Assembly (NCBI GenBank): GCA_013390745.1
Contig: JACASX010000003.1
Span: 1-64,000 of the forward strand
Direction of reading: 5' to 3'
Length of the DNA: 64,000 nucleotides
Source of the DNA: Marine Group I thaumarchaeote
GTDB lineage: Archaea > Thermoproteota > Nitrososphaeria > Nitrososphaerales > Nitrosopumilaceae
Under the pieces are notes generated by a model. The model saw only the letters and a list, made by a program, of their open reading frames with translations, was not told where the DNA came from and made no database searches. Made by a program: the position numbers and the translations under genes. This document shows, piece by piece, positions 50,408 through 60,285 of the stretch; positions within the stretch are counted from its first letter, which is position 1, and every line of letters begins with the position of its first letter.

Positions 50408-51013
50408 TTGAAAGTTGCAATATTTGATTATGGAGCCGGAAATATTTTCAGCCTAAAAAACTCACTGGAAAAAAATGGTGCACAGGTAGATATCATTACT
50501 AACTTAAACAAATCAAAAGAATATTCTGGTTTACTATTGCCTGGTGTTGGTAACTTTGATCCTGCTATTAGAAGTATACGTGATTATTCTTCAACTGACT
50601 TTAAAGATTATGTTGGGGAAATTATGCCAGTACTTGGAATATGTCTTGGAATGGAGATGTTCTTTGAAAAAAGTGAGGAGGGTAAAGAACAAGGCTTGAG
50701 TGTTATCAACGGCGAAGTTGTTCTTCTACCAAACACAATGAAAGTTCCACATATGGGTTGGAACAGTTTAGAGATCGAACGACAAAATAATTTCTTGGAA
50801 GGTGTTAATGATGGTTCATGGGTTTATTTTGTACACTCATACATGATAAAGACAAAAGAAATAGGATTGATTGCAGCAAATACAGATTATGGCATTAATG
50901 TCCCCGCAGTAATTCAACAAAAAAATTTCATTGGAACACAATTTCACCCAGAAAAATCAGGAAAAATTGGTTCCTTAATGTTAAGTAACTTCCTAAGTGA
51001 ATGTAAAAAATGA
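50408..51013 (+). CDS. hisH: Imidazole glycerol phosphate synthase, glutaminase subunit
   Basis: Supplies ammonia from glutamine to HisF. The 201-residue class I amidotransferase has the nucleophile elbow LGICLGMEMFF, oxyanion loop PGVGNFDPAI, MGWNSLE, YFVHSYM and the His-Glu pair in TQFHPEKSG. Starts with TTG 2 bp after hisB and overlaps hisA by 4 bases. Confidence 0.95.
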   Translation: MKVAIFDYGAGNIFSLKNSLEKNGAQVDIITNLNKSKEYSGLLLPGVGNFDPAIRSIRDYSSTDFKDYVGEIMPVLGICLGMEMFFEKSEEGKEQGLSVINGEVVLLPNTMKVPHMGWNSLEIERQNNFLEGVNDGSWVYFVHSYMIKTKEIGLIAANTDYGINVPAVIQQKNFIGTQFHPEKSGKIGSLMLSNFLSECKK

Positions 51014-51714
51014 AAATAATTCCTGCGATAGACCTAATGGAAGGAAAAGTAGTTCGGCTCTACAAGGGTGACCCTAACAAAAAAACCATCTACAGTGAAA
51101 ACCCACTGGAAATTGCAAAAAAATGGGAGTCTGCTGGTGCCGATATGATTCACTTAGTAGATCTTGATGCAACACTTGGAAGGGGTTCTAACTTTGAGGC
51201 ACTTGGTAACATAGCAAAATCGGTTAAAATTCCTGTCCAAGTTGCTGGAGGACTTAGAAATGAAAAGATTATCGAAAAGGCTTTGGAATTTGCCCAAAGA
51301 GTAGTGATAGGAACGCTTGCATTCAAGGATAAAACAGTGCTTGATAGGCTTCTAGCAACATATGGTAATGAAAAATTAGTGATATCGGTTGATCACAATG
51401 ATGGTCTTATAGTTGTAAATGGATGGCAACAGACCACGAAGATATCGTTAATTGATGCTGTAAACGACTTCAGAAAAATGGGTTTTTCAGAATATTTATC
51501 GACTAGTATAGTCAGGGATGGTACACTAAATGGACCTGACCTAGAACCACTAAAAACGATAAATCAAATCGAAAATATTAATCTCATTGTTAGTGGAGGA
51601 ATTTCCAATATTGGCGATGTAATTAAAGTGAATGAATTAAATCCATTTGGCGTAATATTAGGTAAGGCACTTTATGAAAATCAGGTTACAATTGAGGAGG
51701 CAAAAAAGGTATGA
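51010..51714 (+). CDS. hisA: ProFAR isomerase
   Basis: TIM-barrel isomerase of phosphoribosylformimino-AICAR phosphate. The 234-residue protein has IIPAIDLMEGKVVRLYKGD with catalytic Asp, HLVDLDATLG, VQVAGGLRNEK, ISVDHNDGLIVVNGWQ, VRDGTLNGPDLEPL with the second Asp region, and LIVSGGISNIGD. Both phosphate-binding half barrels are intact. Overlaps hisH and hisF by 4 bases each. Confidence 0.95.
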   Translation: MKIIPAIDLMEGKVVRLYKGDPNKKTIYSENPLEIAKKWESAGADMIHLVDLDATLGRGSNFEALGNIAKSVKIPVQVAGGLRNEKIIEKALEFAQRVVIGTLAFKDKTVLDRLLATYGNEKLVISVDHNDGLIVVNGWQQTTKISLIDAVNDFRKMGFSEYLSTSIVRDGTLNGPDLEPLKTINQIENINLIVSGGISNIGDVIKVNELNPFGVILGKALYENQVTIEEAKKV

Positions 51715-52514
51715 CTTTAACTAAAAGAGTAATACCATGCCTTGATGTAGCAAATGGCAGAGTGGTTAAGGGATTAAATTTTAAATCAATTAAAGATGCA
51801 GGTGATCCTGTTTTACTGGCTGAAAAATATAGCAATGAAGGTGCAGACGAACTTGTCTTTCTTGATATTACTGCGTCAGAAGAGAATAGAGAAATAATAA
51901 AGTCACTAGTTTCTAAGGTTGCCCAAGTAATCAACATCCCATTTACTGTTGGTGGTGGAGTTAAGACACTTCAGCATGCAAGGGACATATTGCTTAGTGG
52001 CGCTGATAAGGTGGCGATTAACACAGGTGCTGTAAAAAATCCTAAAATAATTACAGAATTAATGGAACTGTTTGGAAGACAATGTATTGTAGTTGCAGTT
52101 GATGTGAAGAGAAATTATAACATTGCTGGGCAAAAAAATGTATTCACATACAATGATAAAAAATTCTGGTTTGAAGTTTTCATTTATGGTGGAAAAAAGG
52201 AAACCGGCATTGACGCAATTGAGTGGACAAAAAAAATGGAATCTTTGGGAGCAGGGGAAATACTTCTAACTAGTATAGATATGGACGGAACAAAGAACGG
52301 TTATGACATTAACTTGACAAGAGAAATTGTTAACTCTGTTTCTATTCCCGTTATTGCATCAGGAGGCTGTGGAAAACCTGAAGATATGATTGATGTTTTT
52401 AAAAAAACTGATGTAGAAGCAGCATTAGCTGCCTCGATATTTCATTACGAAACACATTCTGTTAATCGTATCAAGGAATTGATCAAGGAAAACGGAATTC
52501 CTGTGAGGATATAG
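51711..52514 (+). CDS. hisF: Imidazole glycerol phosphate synthase, cyclase subunit
   Basis: TIM-barrel cyclase that uses HisH-derived ammonia to form imidazole glycerol phosphate and AICAR. The 267-residue protein has RVIPCLDVANGRVVKGLNF, LVFLDITASEENRE, PFTVGGGVKTLQHARDIL, SGADKVAINTGAV, LTSIDMDGTKNGYD and PVIASGGCGKPEDM. Catalytic Asp residues are present in the CLDV and DMDG motifs. Overlaps hisA by 4 bases. Confidence 0.96.
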   Translation: MTLTKRVIPCLDVANGRVVKGLNFKSIKDAGDPVLLAEKYSNEGADELVFLDITASEENREIIKSLVSKVAQVINIPFTVGGGVKTLQHARDILLSGADKVAINTGAVKNPKIITELMELFGRQCIVVAVDVKRNYNIAGQKNVFTYNDKKFWFEVFIYGGKKETGIDAIEWTKKMESLGAGEILLTSIDMDGTKNGYDINLTREIVNSVSIPVIASGGCGKPEDMIDVFKKTDVEAALAASIFHYETHSVNRIKELIKENGIPVRI

Positions 52515-52548
52515 TAAAGATTAACAAACACACGTTTTATGACAAACT

Positions 52549-52878
52549 ATGGAACAAAACATCACCAACATTGATTTTTCAAAGGGAGACGGTATAGTTC
52601 CTGTCATAGTACAGGATGCTAACACCAACGAGGTTCTAACGTTGGCGTATTCAAACAAGGAATCACTTGAACGTACTTTATCTACTGGCAACTCTTGGTT
52701 TTGGAGCAGATCTAGAAAGAAGCTATGGATGAAAGGCGAAGAATCAGGAAACACACAGAAAGTTAGGAAAGTTTTGGTTGATTGTGATTCTGATTCGCTG
52801 ATCTATATGGTAGATCCCGAAGGCCCGGCATGTCATACTGGTGAAAGAACATGCTTCCATAACTCTCTAAAAAGTTAA
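52549..52878 (+). CDS. hisI: Phosphoribosyl-AMP cyclohydrolase
   Basis: Opens the purine ring of phosphoribosyl-AMP. The 109-residue protein has VIVQDANTNEVLTLAYSNKE, WFWSRSRKKLWMKGEESGN, the metal motif VDCDSDSLIYMVD and CHTGERTCF. It is monofunctional: the HisE pyrophosphatase is neither fused nor elsewhere in this operon. It follows hisF by 34 bp. Confidence 0.95.
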   Translation: MEQNITNIDFSKGDGIVPVIVQDANTNEVLTLAYSNKESLERTLSTGNSWFWSRSRKKLWMKGEESGNTQKVRKVLVDCDSDSLIYMVDPEGPACHTGERTCFHNSLKS

Positions 52879-52924: not shown

Positions 52925-54148
52925 ATGTCTGGCATGAGCAAGACCTTCCTACGGTGTAGGGAATGCAAAAAGGAGTATGATTCTACTTTCAAGTATATCT
53001 GTGATGAGTGCTTTGGTCCGTTAGATGTTCATTATAACTTTCCACCTATAACAAAAGACACCTTTACAAATCGTGAGCAAACCTACTGGAGATATTTTGA
53101 GTTACTTCCAATCATTGACAAGTCAAACATTGTTAGCATAAGTGCTGGAATGACACCGCTTGTCAGAGCAGAAAAACTAGGCAAGGAGATTGGCCTAAAC
53201 AATCTTTACATAAAAAATGATTCTGTTAATCCAACATTTTCATTCAAAGACAGACCAGCAGGCGTTGCAATTTCAAAGGCAAAAGAGTTTGGTTTAAGCT
53301 CTGTTGGATGTGCATCCACTGGAAATCTTGCGGCAGCTACTGCTGCACATGCAGCTAAAGGAAATTTCCCATGCTATATATTCGCACCAAGTGACATTGA
53401 GCACGCAAAGATTACACAGGCATTGTCATATGGCGCAAACTACATAGCTGTTGATGGAACTTATGATGATGCTAATAGAATAGCTGCGCAGATAGGTGAC
53501 AGCAAAGGCATTGGTATTGTAAACATCAACATGAGATCCTATTATGTTGAAGGTTCAAAGACGTTAGCTTATGAAGTGGCTGAACAATTAGACTGGCAAG
53601 TGCCTGATCAGTTGGTTGTTCCAACTGGAAGTGGTGCAATGTTGAATGCAATTTGTAAGGGCTTTGAGGAACTGGAAACTGTTTCATTAGTAGATAGAGT
53701 ATCAAAAATACACATGAACTGCGCGCAACCACATGGCTGTGCACCAATAGTTGACGCATTTAAGAACAACAGTGATGATGTTATTCCAGTAGAAAACCCC
53801 GATACTGTAGCAAAAAGTTTAGCAATTGGTGATCCTGGTGATGGCCGTTATGTTCTAAAAAGGCTTAAGCAATACAACGGAATAGCACAAGAATCAAACA
53901 ACAAAGAAATACTTGATGCAATTTTATTACTTGCAAAAACAGAAGGTATATTCACGGAACCAGCTGGCGGTGTATCAGTAGCTGTACTAAAGAAAATGGT
54001 TGAAGACGGACAGATTGACAAGGATGAAACCACAGTTTGTTATGTAACTGGAAATGGATTAAAGGCAACAGAATCTATCATGGAGGTACTATCAAGACCG
54101 GAAGTTATGCAGCCTGATATTGCAAAGATTTCGGCAGTTGTGAAGTAA
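52925..54148 (+). CDS. thrC: Threonine synthase
   Basis: PLP enzyme of fold type II that converts O-phosphohomoserine to threonine. The 407-residue protein has an N-terminal zinc ribbon (LRCRECKKEYDS ... YICDECFGPLD), PLP lysine in NPTFSFKDRPAGVA, the ASTGNLAAATAAHA loop, PTGSGAMLNAICKG phosphate-binding loop and FTEPAGGVSVAVL. A TATA-like ATATTTTAT about 25 bp upstream suggests its own leaderless transcript. An UBL-E1 fusion gene starts 1 bp after its stop. Because this fold also includes sulfhydrylases acting on the same substrate, a second activity is conceivable. Confidence 0.92.
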   Translation: MSGMSKTFLRCRECKKEYDSTFKYICDECFGPLDVHYNFPPITKDTFTNREQTYWRYFELLPIIDKSNIVSISAGMTPLVRAEKLGKEIGLNNLYIKNDSVNPTFSFKDRPAGVAISKAKEFGLSSVGCASTGNLAAATAAHAAKGNFPCYIFAPSDIEHAKITQALSYGANYIAVDGTYDDANRIAAQIGDSKGIGIVNINMRSYYVEGSKTLAYEVAEQLDWQVPDQLVVPTGSGAMLNAICKGFEELETVSLVDRVSKIHMNCAQPHGCAPIVDAFKNNSDDVIPVENPDTVAKSLAIGDPGDGRYVLKRLKQYNGIAQESNNKEILDAILLLAKTEGIFTEPAGGVSVAVLKKMVEDGQIDKDETTVCYVTGNGLKATESIMEVLSRPEVMQPDIAKISAVVK

Positions 54149-54149
54149 A

Positions 54150-55505
54150 TTGACAAGTATTACGTTCACAATTCCATCTGTTCTTAACGGTGGTGCAGGG
54201 GAAAAAAAAATTAATCTTGATGCAGATACACTAAATGATGCATTTGCTAAAATTTCAGAAACAATGGGTGATGATTTTAAACGCAAAGTTCTAAATGAAG
54301 ATGGCACACCAAGATCACTGATCAACATTTACATCAATGGAAAGAATGCAAAGTTTTCTTCAGGACTTGACACTGCACTAAGTGATGGAGATGATGTATC
54401 AATTCTTCCTGCAGTAGCAGGGGGATCCAGTGGGATAGGGGGAGAGGGGTCTGACCTTTCCGAAAAAGAATTGGACAGATATTCTCGACAAGTTATGTTA
54501 GAAGAAATTGGTTATCAAGGACAATTAAAATTGAAACAAGCTAGCGTTTGTGTTGTTGGTGTTGGTGGTTTGGGCAATCCTATAGTAACAAGACTTGCTG
54601 CAATGGGTGTTGGTAAAATTCGAATTGTTGATCGTGATGTCATTGAGTTGTCAAACCTTCATAGGCAAACGATGTTCACCGAAGATGATGTTGGTCAAGT
54701 TAAAGTAGAGATAGCTGCAAAAAAATTACGTAAACTTAATGCGGATATAATTATAGAAGATCTAGCTGTTTCAATAAATGACTACACTGCATTCGAAGTT
54801 GTTGATGGTTGTGATGTTGTTGTTGATGCGCTTGACAGTGTTAATGCACGCTATTCACTTAACAAAGCTTGTATAGAAAAGAAAATTCCGTTTGTTACTG
54901 GTGCAGCAGTTGGTGTTACTGGTCAGTGTTTTACAATCTTGCCTAACAAATCTGCCTGTTACTACTGTTTGTTTCCTGCACTTGACGAAGATTCTATGCC
55001 AACCTGCAGCATTGAGGGGGTGCACCCATCAATACTTTCTATCATAGGTGGTATAGAAGTTTCTGAAGCTGTAAAGATCATCACAGGGAAGGCGCCAAGT
55101 CTTAAGGACAAAGTTTTGCACGTTGACTTGGAAAATTTAATTTTTAATTTTACAAAAGTTTCTAGGGTTCAAGAGTGTTCGGTTTGTGGTTCTGGTAAAA
55201 AGCAGGATAAACCAAAAGAAGAGCTCATACTTGAAGAATTGTGCGGACGAAACAGGGGCAAGCGAACATTTTCCGTTACACCGACGTACCCTGTGGCGCT
55301 AAATGTTGATGACATTACATCCATTGCCAAGGAAAAGGGGTTTGTTGTGGAAAATTTAGGTGATCTTGGTATCTCCATGAGGACAAATGACATATCTGTC
55401 AGTTTCATGAAAAGTGGGTCAGCCGTATTGGTTGGGCCAAAGGATGAGCAGGAGGCAACCTCACTTTATAAAGACCTCCTAGGCGTAAAATCGCTCATAA
55501 AATAG
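54150..55505 (+). CDS. MoaD/ThiS-like ubiquitin domain fused to an MoeB/ThiF-type E1 enzyme
   Basis: A 451-residue fusion. Residues 1-92 form a MoaD-type beta-grasp domain ending DDVSILPAVAGG, with the Gly-Gly (91-92) that is normally C-terminal. A Gly/Ser linker (93-103) leads to an adenylating E1 domain: DLSEKELDRYSRQVMLEEIG, nucleotide loop GVGGLGNP (137-144), zinc cysteines C270, C273, C343, C346 and a candidate active-site Cys286 in MPTCSIEG. The last 85 residues (about 367-451) are a small alpha/beta domain that is not rhodanese. E1s adenylate UBL C-termini for thiocarboxylation, so the internal Gly-Gly is odd and would need cleavage. Starts TTG, 1 bp after thrC. Confidence 0.85.
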   Translation: MTSITFTIPSVLNGGAGEKKINLDADTLNDAFAKISETMGDDFKRKVLNEDGTPRSLINIYINGKNAKFSSGLDTALSDGDDVSILPAVAGGSSGIGGEGSDLSEKELDRYSRQVMLEEIGYQGQLKLKQASVCVVGVGGLGNPIVTRLAAMGVGKIRIVDRDVIELSNLHRQTMFTEDDVGQVKVEIAAKKLRKLNADIIIEDLAVSINDYTAFEVVDGCDVVVDALDSVNARYSLNKACIEKKIPFVTGAAVGVTGQCFTILPNKSACYYCLFPALDEDSMPTCSIEGVHPSILSIIGGIEVSEAVKIITGKAPSLKDKVLHVDLENLIFNFTKVSRVQECSVCGSGKKQDKPKEELILEELCGRNRGKRTFSVTPTYPVALNVDDITSIAKEKGFVVENLGDLGISMRTNDISVSFMKSGSAVLVGPKDEQEATSLYKDLLGVKSLIK

Positions 55506-55674: not shown

Positions 55675-58600
55675 ATGAAAAACGAAATAGGACGTAAATT
55701 AACTAGTCTTACAATAATGGCGATTATGTTCGCCGGCGGTATGGCAATCGGTGTCCCAAGCTTTATGCCTGAGGCAGCATCCGACTTGTCAGTAACTGAC
55801 GGCTTACTAACCGTAAGTACAACAACTCTGCAAGGAGTAGCAATTTTAGAAATTGTTGTTAACGACCCAGATAACAGTGATACAACAGGAGACGTAACTG
55901 CACTATCAGCTTCAGTAGGTGGAACTTCTTATGACTTGACACAAGCAACCAACGGTAAATGGTATGCATATGTTGTTGATTTGTCACAAGCAGATCTATT
56001 GACAGCTGATGGCACAGGCCTCGAGTTTGGTATCAAATGTACAGAAGGTTTAGGTAAAGCTGAATCTACAACCGACCTTATAGTCGGTACATCAACTGAT
56101 GTTTATGCAGCAGTTGGATCATCAGTAAACCACTCAGCAGTAGCTCACATAGGCAATTGTCTTGACGCAGATGGTGCACTCGGTGTAACAGATGATACTG
56201 CAGGTTCAACAGCCAGAGAAGATCTGACTGCCGCAGTATTACAAGGAGCACCATCACTAAGTGATCCTGACAGTGACGCAGCTAACCTAGGACAACGAGC
56301 TCACGGGCTCAATGCTTCTGGTTATGGTACATGGCCTTACATCATTGGTGTCGACTTAAATGACGACAACGAGGTAGCATATGGTAGTGACGCAATCAAC
56401 GTCGTGTATGGAAATACTGACGATGAGACAAGCATCAGTATGTCAAACAGAAACCCAGCAGACAATTCTGAGATTCATTTGACAATAACTGATCCGGCAC
56501 TAAACATTGACCCAACAACTGCAGATCTGTGGCAATTTGATCTAAGTGATACAGCATTCGATACTAATTCAGCAGTATTCGGTAATAACGGAACTGGAAA
56601 CACTGCACAAAGTGCAGCTCAGATGGGTGACCTTGGTTTTGAATCCAATGGATTACTATCTGCTAACATTGAAACAGTATTAGCTACAGGTGCAAACAAC
56701 GTAGACACTGTAATAATGACTGAAAGTGGTGCAAACACAGGCGTGTTTGAATCATTCGACATTAACGGCAACGGCCAATTCCAAACAACAGTTGGCGCAG
56801 CCGCTGATACACAGGTCATATTCGGTTATGGTGGAAACAGTGTTGACATGATTATCACATACAACGACGCAACAATTTCAATGGACGCTGGCGGAGATTG
56901 GGCTCCAGGTCAAACGGCAACTATATCAGTAAATGATCCAGATGCCAACCGAAACCCAACCTCAGCAGAAACGCTGAACGCTTATGACGAAACAGTAGTA
57001 ATTCCAACTATCGTAATGGGTACTGGTGGTTTGACGCTTGCAACAGGTGCAAACCCATCACTGGAGAAAGGTGATACCAACGCAACTACAGGAGTAGTTG
57101 TTGGTACTGGTGACCAAAGCTCATACCTACTGACTGTCCAAAACACAACTGATAACAGTGAAAGATTACGAATCATCCACAGTGCTGAACATACAGCTTC
57201 TGCACTCACAACATACACATGGGTTAACGTAACAACAGGTCACACAAGAGCAAATTTGATTGACTTAGCAGGAACAGTAGTTCTTAACTATGATGTCAGA
57301 GGAGCAGCAGACCTAATGGCATCAACCGCAATCTCTACATATGTAGTTGATTCAGGCGAAAACTCAACCAACAACTCAGGAGGATTGATCACAGTCAATA
57401 CATCTGGTAACGTTAAAGCAGGCAGCTATGACTTAGCACCTGGAATAACAAATAATGATGTAACTGCAGTCCAAACCTTTTCCAGCAGCGATGCTGGTGA
57501 AGCAGGTACTGTATTTGTTGGCGTAGCCTTCAAGTTTACACACGCAGCTGGCAAAGATCTTGCCTCCAATGCAGACTATGCAATTTCAGCAGACTTTTGT
57601 AACTTCGATCAAGCAAATGGCTCACTTACTCACAACTGTATCTACAGATTAGAAGCCGTAGAGACCGGTGACAACACTGGTATCTTTGAAGGCACTGTAG
57701 AATACGTTAACCTAAACAACTCAACAACTGGCGGTGCCATCAGTGGTGAACACGATGGTGGTGACCAAGAAGTTGAGGGTCTTTTGGGATACATACGAGG
57801 TGACGCACTCACTGTAGTCTTAATGGACTCAGTAAGTGGCAGTGACTCTGTACGTGTCGTGTATAACGACACAGATGCATTCCAAGTTGCCACCAAGATT
57901 GGTGCACAACTAGAAACATCTACATACACAGGTGACATTAGTCTTGATGCAGATAGTTACGGAGCAGCAGACATTGCAGTAATAACAATAGTCGATGCAG
58001 ATCTTAACACAGATAGTGCTTCACGTGATACTTACCAAAACAGTTCTACTACATTCAACATTACAGTCACACAATCCGGTCAAACCAATTCTGAACAATT
58101 GGTAGCAGCAGCTATGACAATCATTGAAACTGGCGACAATACTGGTGTCTTTGTAGGAACATTCTCTGTTCCTGATTACAAGGGCTCAGATTTGGAACTA
58201 GTATACTATGATTCAAGAGATGCTGGCGGAAGTGCCGTAGAATATTATGATACAGCAACAGTAGTTTCAAACTCTGGTTCTGTAGCATTTGATAGATCTG
58301 TATATCCAGTTCCATTCACCGCTGGTGACCTTAGAACAGGATCTGCAGAAACGACACTACAGACTGAACCAGGTATCGTAACCGCATGGATTACGGTTTC
58401 AGATGGCGACGAAACTAACGACACATTAACCACTGCCTCTACAACAGCAGCTGGTCTAATTCTGATCAAACATACTAACTCTACAGGATCTGTAACTATT
58501 GCTACCGCAGGTAGCACAGCTGCATATTCTGGAACAGCTGGTTCACTTGTTCAAGAACTAGGACCTCTTAGCGAGATTGTAATAGGTAGCAGTGAGTTTG

Positions 58601-60285
58601 AAGTGTCTTTGTCCATATCTGAAACAATGGGAACCGCGAGCGGAACTCACACAATCCAAGCTGGTGACGTTATCCAAGTAGAATATGTTGATACAGCAGA
58701 CAGTGCAGGCAGTACAAGTACCTTCTATGATTCTTCAACATTTGATCTAAGAACAGGTACACTTTCAGTTGACAAGGATGTCTATGTAATGGGCAGCGAT
58801 ATGGTTGTTACAATAACCGATCCTGACTTGAACTTAGACTCTGGAACATGTGAATCATATGCAATGAGTATCCTAGAATGGGATTCATCTGCTGATTCAT
58901 CTCAATTGTTAGCAACCTCTTCTGCATCAAACACCTCAGCTTACTTTACATCAAACCCATCATCTATCGAGGAAACTGGTTGTGACACTGGAGTATTCCA
59001 GACTGTAGTCACACTACCAGTCACAACAATTGGTGATGGAGGCGATCCAGAGTATGGTGAAAGTGTAACATTGACATATGTCGATGTTGGACTATCTGGT
59101 GAAAGCGATGTAGAAGGCGACACTGCAGACATTGAAGCTTACTTCAGTATATCCAACTTTGGTGCTATTGTCGAACTCGACAAGGCACTCTATAATTGGA
59201 CTGATACTGTGTACATAACAATCACTGCACCTGATCACAACAACAACAGCGCCGCTGAAGAAACAATTGGCACATCAGCACTTCCAATTCAGTTAACAAC
59301 ACGAGCTGGAAAGATGTGTACAACTGCTAACGGCAGCGCATACGCAGTAGCAGCAGAAACTGGTCCTGACACTGGAGTATTTACTATGGAAGTAGCATTA
59401 CAAGGATATCAGCTAGCCGCGGCAACTAACACGCCATCGGCATCAGCCTTCGCTTGTAGTGGATCATCCAGTACAGCTGGAACAGCAAAAACTGCAGGAC
59501 AAACTGACGGTGTATCCGTTTCATACGAGTACACTGACGCAGTAGTAGTTGTTGCATCAGCCTCAATTGCATTCAATATAGCAGAAGCAGGCTTTGACAC
59601 AAGTAGTGCCTCAGCAGGCGGCTCAGCAGTATTGACCGTAACAGACGCAGATGAGAACACGAACAGCGGCATTATTAACACGTTAACAGCAGCAGTATTC
59701 TCCGATTCAGATAATGGTGGTTTCACACTCACCTTGAACGAGACAGATGAAGACACAGGAGTATTCGAAGGAACGGTATTCTTTACCTCCACGGATGCAA
59801 CTTCTGGTTCAAGTCTTCGTGTCTCTGAAGGTGACACAGTAACCACTGAATATTCTGACACAACTCTACCAGAACCATATACTGATAGCGATTCATTGAC
59901 CATAGCATCCACATTGACAATAGGCACAGCATTCCCTCCACTTGAGAGAGCACCTGCTGCTAACGCACGAGTAGTCGACGCATTCGGCTCTTCGGTAGCG
60001 GAAGTATCAGTTAATCAACAAGTGCAGATTGCAGCCGACGTGTCAAATGGACAGAGCAGTGATCAAGCATTCGCATACTTAGTACAGGTACAGGATGGAG
60101 ACGGAGTAACGGTGTCATTAGCATGGATTACAGGTTCTTTGACTGCAGGACAATCAATGAGTCCAGCATTGTCATGGACGCCTAGCGCTGCCGGATCATA
60201 CACTGCAACAGTGTTTGTCTGGGAGAGCGTAGATAATCCAACCGCGCTATCACCAACCACATCTGTAACCATAGACGTAGTATAA
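55675..60285 (+). CDS. Giant S-layer protein of Nitrosopumilus type
   Basis: A 1536-residue secreted protein with a signal peptide (SLTIMAIMFAGGMAIGVPS) and no C-terminal membrane anchor. The chain consists of about seven Ig-like domains marked by recurring acidic motifs: a V-x-D-P-D-x-N element (for example VTITDPDLNLDS) and E-T-G-x-N-T-G-V-F-E-G (six variants), likely calcium-binding. It is rich in Thr, Ser, Ala and Asp, with many N-x-S/T sequons, and has exactly eight Cys in four local pairs. This matches the S-layer protein described in N. maritimus, which coats the cell and may concentrate ammonium. Codon use looks more refined than in neighbours, fitting very high expression. Confidence 0.88.
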   Translation: MKNEIGRKLTSLTIMAIMFAGGMAIGVPSFMPEAASDLSVTDGLLTVSTTTLQGVAILEIVVNDPDNSDTTGDVTALSASVGGTSYDLTQATNGKWYAYVVDLSQADLLTADGTGLEFGIKCTEGLGKAESTTDLIVGTSTDVYAAVGSSVNHSAVAHIGNCLDADGALGVTDDTAGSTAREDLTAAVLQGAPSLSDPDSDAANLGQRAHGLNASGYGTWPYIIGVDLNDDNEVAYGSDAINVVYGNTDDETSISMSNRNPADNSEIHLTITDPALNIDPTTADLWQFDLSDTAFDTNSAVFGNNGTGNTAQSAAQMGDLGFESNGLLSANIETVLATGANNVDTVIMTESGANTGVFESFDINGNGQFQTTVGAAADTQVIFGYGGNSVDMIITYNDATISMDAGGDWAPGQTATISVNDPDANRNPTSAETLNAYDETVVIPTIVMGTGGLTLATGANPSLEKGDTNATTGVVVGTGDQSSYLLTVQNTTDNSERLRIIHSAEHTASALTTYTWVNVTTGHTRANLIDLAGTVVLNYDVRGAADLMASTAISTYVVDSGENSTNNSGGLITVNTSGNVKAGSYDLAPGITNNDVTAVQTFSSSDAGEAGTVFVGVAFKFTHAAGKDLASNADYAISADFCNFDQANGSLTHNCIYRLEAVETGDNTGIFEGTVEYVNLNNSTTGGAISGEHDGGDQEVEGLLGYIRGDALTVVLMDSVSGSDSVRVVYNDTDAFQVATKIGAQLETSTYTGDISLDADSYGAADIAVITIVDADLNTDSASRDTYQNSSTTFNITVTQSGQTNSEQLVAAAMTIIETGDNTGVFVGTFSVPDYKGSDLELVYYDSRDAGGSAVEYYDTATVVSNSGSVAFDRSVYPVPFTAGDLRTGSAETTLQTEPGIVTAWITVSDGDETNDTLTTASTTAAGLILIKHTNSTGSVTIATAGSTAAYSGTAGSLVQELGPLSEIVIGSSEFEVSLSISETMGTASGTHTIQAGDVIQVEYVDTADSAGSTSTFYDSSTFDLRTGTLSVDKDVYVMGSDMVVTITDPDLNLDSGTCESYAMSILEWDSSADSSQLLATSSASNTSAYFTSNPSSIEETGCDTGVFQTVVTLPVTTIGDGGDPEYGESVTLTYVDVGLSGESDVEGDTADIEAYFSISNFGAIVELDKALYNWTDTVYITITAPDHNNNSAAEETIGTSALPIQLTTRAGKMCTTANGSAYAVAAETGPDTGVFTMEVALQGYQLAAATNTPSASAFACSGSSSTAGTAKTAGQTDGVSVSYEYTDAVVVVASASIAFNIAEAGFDTSSASAGGSAVLTVTDADENTNSGIINTLTAAVFSDSDNGGFTLTLNETDEDTGVFEGTVFFTSTDATSGSSLRVSEGDTVTTEYSDTTLPEPYTDSDSLTIASTLTIGTAFPPLERAPAANARVVDAFGSSVAEVSVNQQVQIAADVSNGQSSDQAFAYLVQVQDGDGVTVSLAWITGSLTAGQSMSPALSWTPSAAGSYTATVFVWESVDNPTALSPTTSVTIDVV

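Follow-up and report, generated by a model that had tools for sequence, protein, structure and literature searches.

Fusions of a ubiquitin-like protein (UBL) to an E1 enzyme have been described in archaea. Makarova & Koonin 2010 mention a 'Ubl-E1-TBP in Thaumarchaeota', and a UBL-Cgi121 fusion has likewise been known since 2010 (PMC2948915). A 2024 archaeal survey gives a MoaD-MoeB fusion in 61/98 Thaumarchaeota (PMC11237513). The protein described here is the same one, with the same domains in the same order and in the same archaea. To the passages of these two sources that deal with the fusion, the present analysis adds the internal Gly-Gly, the split relatives and the MetM-like neighbour (PMC2948915, PMC11237513). 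The UBL-E1-TBP architecture was thus already known, and what is new is a functional assignment, which has moderate support.

Four kinds of characterized systems are relevant for comparison. According to a passage of PMC12172450 citing Hasebe et al. 2024, MetM is a homocysteine synthase that uses O-phosphohomoserine, and metO is a sulfur-carrier gene. The locus resembles this Streptomyces pair in that a ThrC-like pyridoxal phosphate (PLP) enzyme is encoded beside a small sulfur carrier, but the archaeal carrier is fused to its E1 and would need to be released. In the CysO system of M. tuberculosis (PMC3227635), a UBL thiocarboxylate feeds the PLP enzyme, and the amino acid is split off the carrier by the JAMM peptidase Mec+. 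As in CysM-CysO-Mec+ with MoeZR, a CysO-like UBL, a PLP enzyme, an E1 and a JAMM peptidase are all encoded; unlike in that system, the PLP enzyme is ThrC-like and not of the CysM type, the E1 carries a predicted TBP-like domain and no rhodanese, and JAMM genes lie outside the cluster. In G263, a genome of the same class, a JAMM gene does lie inside the cluster. Thirdly, the cut in MoaX falls between Gly82 and Ser83 (PMC4326299), and the Deinococcus MoaD-MoaE fusion DR2607 is cut by a JAMM protease (PMC8832034). Our protein shares with both an N-terminal UBL and an internal Gly-Gly, here after a folded UBL and predicted to be exposed, and most archaeal fusions have Ser directly behind it, as in MoaX; its fusion partner is an E1 rather than the sulfur acceptor MoaE. 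Lastly, UbaA and Uba4/MOCS3 are, like it, E1 enzymes for sulfur carriers and modifiers, but here the UBL is fused in and the rhodanese is missing.

The window, i.e. the whole stretch of 64,000 nucleotides that was analysed, belongs to a Marine Group I thaumarchaeote genome that is 86% complete, with 18 contigs totalling 1.08 Mb. The features of the locus are as follows.

50408..52878, + strand: hisH-hisA-hisF-hisI, the usual upstream context in ammonia oxidisers (ORFs and Pfam; same order in relatives)
52925..54148, + strand: threonine-synthase-like PLP enzyme, read as a MetM-like homocysteine synthase (PALP, 239.4 bits)
54150-55505, + strand: UBL-E1 fusion ORF of 451 aa with a TTG start
54150..54425, + strand: UBL sulfur-carrier domain of the MoaD/ThiS/CysO type, residues 1-92 (PF02597; CysO match; folded in the model)
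54420..54425, + strand: Gly91-Gly92, the probable C-terminus after processing (invariant in 78/78 fusions; free UBLs of relatives end here)
54426..54476, + strand: variable and disordered linker, residues 93-109 (no invariant position at 93-107; pLDDT <50 at 89-100)
54477..55190, + strand: E1, a MoeB/ThiF-type adenylyltransferase, residues 110-347 (PF00899, 239.9 bits)
55005..55007, + strand: Cys286, equivalent of the MoeB/ThiF transthiolation cysteine (MPTCSIEGV, aligned with TCVEAGV of MoeB)
55215..55502, + strand: predicted TBP-like C-terminal domain, residues 356-451 (AlphaFold2 model with Foldseek/VIA-align matches)

A single nucleotide separates the stop codon of the PLP enzyme gene from the TTG start of the fusion. 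Pfam assigns residues 27-92 to the ThiS family (38.2 bits, cut-off 22.5) and residues 111-344 to the ThiF family, and the ThiS profile ends exactly on Gly91-Gly92, which occupy its final two positions. The best PDB match of the UBL half is M. tuberculosis CysO (chain 3dwg_C, 2e-12), and those of the E1 half are MoeB and ThiF; the fold comparison gave E. coli ThiF (Z 35.0) and MoeB (Z 34.6). The AlphaFold2 model has a mean pLDDT of 87.6. The values drop below 50 at residues 89-100, a segment that comprises the Ala-Gly-Gly together with the first part of the linker, and they are also low at the extreme C-terminus; Gly91-Gly92 is thus predicted to sit within a flexible, exposed linker. Across 78 distinct fusions, the nucleotide-site residues R113, H171-R172-Q173, K185 and D229, the zinc cysteines C270, C273, C343 and C346 and also Cys286 are invariant, the last likewise in an alignment of 69 rows. 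Judging by these residues, the E1 half is equipped with the complete MoeB/ThiF-type set of adenylation site, zinc cysteines and transthiolation cysteine.

Close relatives of the protein in named genomes come from Marine Group I thaumarchaeota, at 90-91% identity, and from Nitrosopumilus-like archaea, at 68-75%. An archaeal fusion at 73% identity is also present in a record titled Nitrosomonas sp. MAG OFTM37 (L160), a bin that is probably mislabelled or mixed.

The sequence-only reading had proposed a MoaD-type domain with an internal Gly-Gly, from which the chain runs on into an E1, and the profile and PDB matches together with the 78 fusions bear this out. The motif LPAV[AS]GG is fixed in all of them, with Ala/Ser at one position as the sole variation, and Gly91-Gly92 is invariant in 78/78. 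Conservation is concentrated at this site: 18% of positions 1-85 of the UBL are invariant, as opposed to 6/7 at 86-92 and none at 93-107. The linker up to the E1 motif [RK][YF]SRQ measures 9 to 47 residues, mostly 9-10, and in 67/78 sequences Gly92 is directly followed by Ser. Fusions with Gly91-Gly92 occur in families f1, f2, f3 and f5 of the source's order; given this distribution and the number of distinct sequences, the fusion is not a product of chance or a sequencing artefact. The second Gly-Gly that had been pointed out in the linker (97-98) is seen in the source species only, as its two nearest relatives read SSGTGEQVS and SSGTGEEVS in this region. It was dropped as an element relevant to processing, being species-specific and not conserved.

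We searched the source genome for other UBLs and E1s. It contains one ThiF E1 and two ThiS-type domains above the cut-off, one in the E1 fusion and the other fused to the KEOPS subunit Cgi121 (L053:6391-7179, - strand; G000:C4:21390-22178). In 9/9 genomes compared, the latter protein keeps an internal HGG, with Ser, Ala or Asn as the next residue. Both UBLs being fusions, neither is made with a free Gly-Gly end. From its sequence, UBL-Cgi121 would also require cutting and would rely on the single E1. No free ThiS/MoaD-type protein was found in this 86% complete genome, and thus the separate MoaD/SAMP set that would have spoken against release of the fused carrier did not turn up; absences are provisional as the genome is incomplete.

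In a number of relatives, the UBL and the E1 are encoded apart. Families f4, f6, f7, f9, f11 and f15 have a UBL gene of its own, whose product ends precisely with P-[AS]-V-x-Gly-Gly. UBL and E1 are neighbouring genes, with the UBL stop exactly at the Gly-Gly, in G200, G197, G185, G228, G221, G099, G101 and others. The UBL of G033 nests among the fused UBLs in the tree, in which the sequences are too short to separate MetO from CysO. Its gene ends GGA GGC TAA, and nothing of an E1 is left behind the stop; the E1 of this genome is encoded elsewhere, on a different contig, by a separate paralogue that shares 78% identity with the second E1 of G192. Within genus g23, the linker of G134 is a long Ser/Asn stretch, and in G125 and G143 (L079, L078) the UBL and the E1 are in different overlapping frames that part within the linker, leaving the UBL with a tail of 8-15 residues past the Gly-Gly and the E1 with ATG codons of its own. 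Altogether, these split forms argue that the UBL and the E1 work as separate molecules and that the working end of the carrier is Gly92. The linker of G125 and G143 looks frameshift-prone.

These data also bear on the possibility that the fusion is never cut, in which case the UBL would serve as an integral regulatory or docking domain and the Gly-Gly would have a structural role. Cleavage at Gly92 is, after all, an inference from sequence, and in some bacteria a UBL-ThiF fusion exists alongside a separate ThiS, so that another role was assumed for the fused UBL (PMC1779556). Against this, the Gly-Gly is invariant although it lies in a disordered segment, no separate UBL was found in the source genome, and the UBLs of relatives, one of them descended from the fused form, end precisely with the Gly-Gly. 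We therefore regard a permanently uncut fusion as very unlikely.

Release of the carrier at Gly92 calls for a protease, and the earlier suggestion of a JAMM enzyme led to two candidates in the source genome, JAMM1 (HSHPNSDAIPSSTD) and JAMM2 (HSHPVGSAEPSLTD), both with a complete HxHx7SxxD motif and an upstream Glu. Their genes are on contig C1 and the fusion is on C3; no JAMM gene is adjacent to the fusion locus in the ammonia oxidisers examined. JAMM1 matches the desampylase model with 65 bits, under that model's cut-off. It is present in 75/81 family genomes and persists in G061, whose long contig has neither the PLP enzyme nor the fusion, and it must therefore have other work. Being nearly universal in the family, it is uninformative as a marker of the fusion.

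Release at Gly92 is very probable, considering the invariant Gly-Gly, the free UBLs of relatives that stop there, the lack of a free MoaD/ThiS-type protein among those searched for in the genome, the two full-motif JAMM proteins and the cutting of the MoaX and Deinococcus MoaD-MoaE fusions. This part of the sequence-only reading, a carrier freed by a protease such as a JAMM, thus stands as a probable event, without its second Gly-Gly. That the protease is one of the JAMM type is a somewhat less secure proposal, towards which we lean.

The gene directly upstream gives clues to the role of the carrier. Family models label the PLP enzyme a threonine synthase. Nevertheless, its substrate loops differ from those of canonical ThrC, while the fold family is kept: most of 119 orthologues have NPTFSFKDRPA, STGNLA[AS] and N-N-R-YYVEGSK, where the canonical counterparts are NPTGSFKDRGM, STGNTSA and NPYRLEGQK. 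A second ThrC-like enzyme of the source genome (L060:1114-2499, G000:C1) keeps the canonical motifs and is probably the true threonine synthase. In the tree, the PLP enzyme and its Nitrososphaeria orthologues group with a Nonomuraea ThrC-like enzyme, apart from canonical ThrC, with moderate support (89/92); in this comparison, the uncharacterised Nonomuraea pair stands in for the characterised MetM/MetO of S. albulus. The two enzymes are 44% identical, and the Nonomuraea gene directly precedes a UBL gene whose product ends SIIPAVAGG. When aligned, the Nonomuraea pair has the same enzyme motifs and the same Gly-Gly end as the archaeal system, and its make-up fits MetM/MetO.

The PLP enzyme gene is directly upstream of the UBL in the sufficiently long loci from f1, f2, f3, f5, f6, f7, f9, f11 and f15, leaving aside the rhodanese-type clusters, and the order PLP enzyme-UBL-E1 is conserved throughout the class. 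Where the E1 has moved away (G033, G083), the UBL is still beside the PLP enzyme. Genomes of the family that lack the PLP enzyme tend to lack the fusion as well; we set this co-loss aside as weak evidence, since in G011, G012, G070 and G075 the contig ends just after hisI (hisF search and loci) and, among the loci examined, G061 is the sole case in which a long contig carries neither gene.

Two sister clusters in the class have other partners. G263 encodes CysM-JAMM-UBL-E1-rhodanese (L141:4033-7332), with a UBL tail of 15 residues past the Gly-Gly, and G095 encodes PF01053 enzyme-JAMM-[UBL-E1-rhodanese] (L140:2774-5924), with the JAMM gene directly upstream of what is apparently an independent fusion event. 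The partners in these clusters are thus PLP enzymes of cysteine and homocysteine synthesis. The G095 cluster would be a good system for studying JAMM processing.

Might the released UBL be mainly a protein modifier, similar to SAMP or Urm1, with the JAMM protein as desampylase and the PLP enzyme as an operon neighbour or target? The UBL matches the models of SAMP1 (51.9 bits, cut-off 60) and archaeal MoaD (49.6 bits, cut-off 49.5), JAMM1 resembles a desampylase, and HvJAMM1 is described as cutting SAMP fusions (PMC8832034). However, the PLP enzyme stays with the UBL even where the E1 leaves, and the sister clusters pair the UBL with PLP enzymes of cysteine or homocysteine synthesis. A mainly modifying role is therefore unlikely, although the two roles may coexist.

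Cysteine is another conceivable product, if the pair were of the CysM/CysO/Mec+ type and the ThrC-like enzyme acted on O-phosphoserine. CysO is the best PDB match of the UBL, and a CysM-JAMM-UBL-E1 cluster exists in the same class. ThrC-like enzymes are able to switch to O-phosphoserine, for which cysteate synthase is the precedent. Nevertheless, the enzyme is ThrC-like and aligns with CysM merely in short stretches, at 24-28% identity, and the source genome has a separate CysK/CysM-like enzyme (L062:1303-2850, G000:C2), a possible cysteine synthase of this archaeon. We thus consider a cysteine-making pair improbable. The C-terminal extension of the L062 protein looks rhodanese-like by eye, with no Pfam match.

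No full-length PF01053 protein and no PF01837 protein was found in 11 single-contig Nitrosopumilaceae genomes, in 5 single-contig genomes of f2/f3 or in the 86% complete source genome. Homocysteine is thus left without a source among the families tested in ammonia oxidisers, and the conserved MetM-like neighbour points to its synthesis. A finding that counts against a MetM function is that a cyanobacterial enzyme 51.6% identical to MetM made threonine in vitro (PMC12172450). On balance, a MetM-type function of the PLP enzyme/carrier pair is quite likely.

We therefore propose, as the likely reading, a homocysteine pathway of the MetM/MetO type in which the carrier is synthesised as a pro-protein together with its own E1 and is released at Gly92. 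Translation would yield a MetO-like carrier, a loose linker and the only E1 found in the genome as one polypeptide, hence a 1:1 supply of carrier and E1. Proteolysis after Gly92, for which the two JAMM metalloproteases are the most likely candidates, would free the C-terminus of the carrier. The E1 would adenylate the freed Gly92, which would be converted to a thiocarboxylate via Cys286 and a sulfur donor. MetO itself is, reportedly from Hasebe et al., a thiocarboxylate donor. From the carrier thiocarboxylate and O-phosphohomoserine, the neighbouring MetM-like enzyme would then form homocysteine, which is the methionine precursor. By analogy with Mec+, the same JAMM protein could make both cuts, for maturation and for amino-acid release. 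What we observed are the domain anatomy, the invariant Gly-Gly, the free carriers of relatives that end in it, the conserved gene cluster and the lack of two other homocysteine enzyme families; from these we infer the cleavage, its protease, the thiocarboxylation, the substrate and the product. A stricter version, that fusion-bearing ammonia oxidisers make homocysteine and methionine only via the pro-carrier and that one JAMM protein both matures the fusion and releases homocysteine, the cycle thus opening and closing with one peptidase reaction at the same Gly-Gly, is possible but rather doubtful.

Few cells in the sea and soil are as abundant as ammonia-oxidising archaea, and neither of the tested homocysteine synthase families was found in them. 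If the proposal is true, their methionine route would be assigned, and the threonine-synthase annotation of the upstream enzyme would have to be corrected. It would also explain why the two UBLs of the source genome are both fusions with an internal Gly-Gly. The fused, split and re-split genes would then form a natural set for studying UBL maturation and supply to the E1.

The C-terminal domain had been predicted not to be the rhodanese of Uba4, and this proved correct: Pfam detected no rhodanese at the C-terminus of the fusion protein. As fold searches with the whole model returned E1 only, we folded the domain by itself (pLDDT 84.8). TATA-binding proteins then topped the list of matches (best Z 8.7 over 89 residues, rmsd 3.3), and the domain is thus predicted to be TBP-like.

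Regarding the surroundings of the locus, an Rfam scan of 47-61 kb gave no match, and hence no SAM riboswitch was found there. Directly downstream (window 55675-60285) is a gene for a large, repetitive surface-layer-like protein, and a number of MAG assemblies are interrupted somewhere from hisI to this gene.
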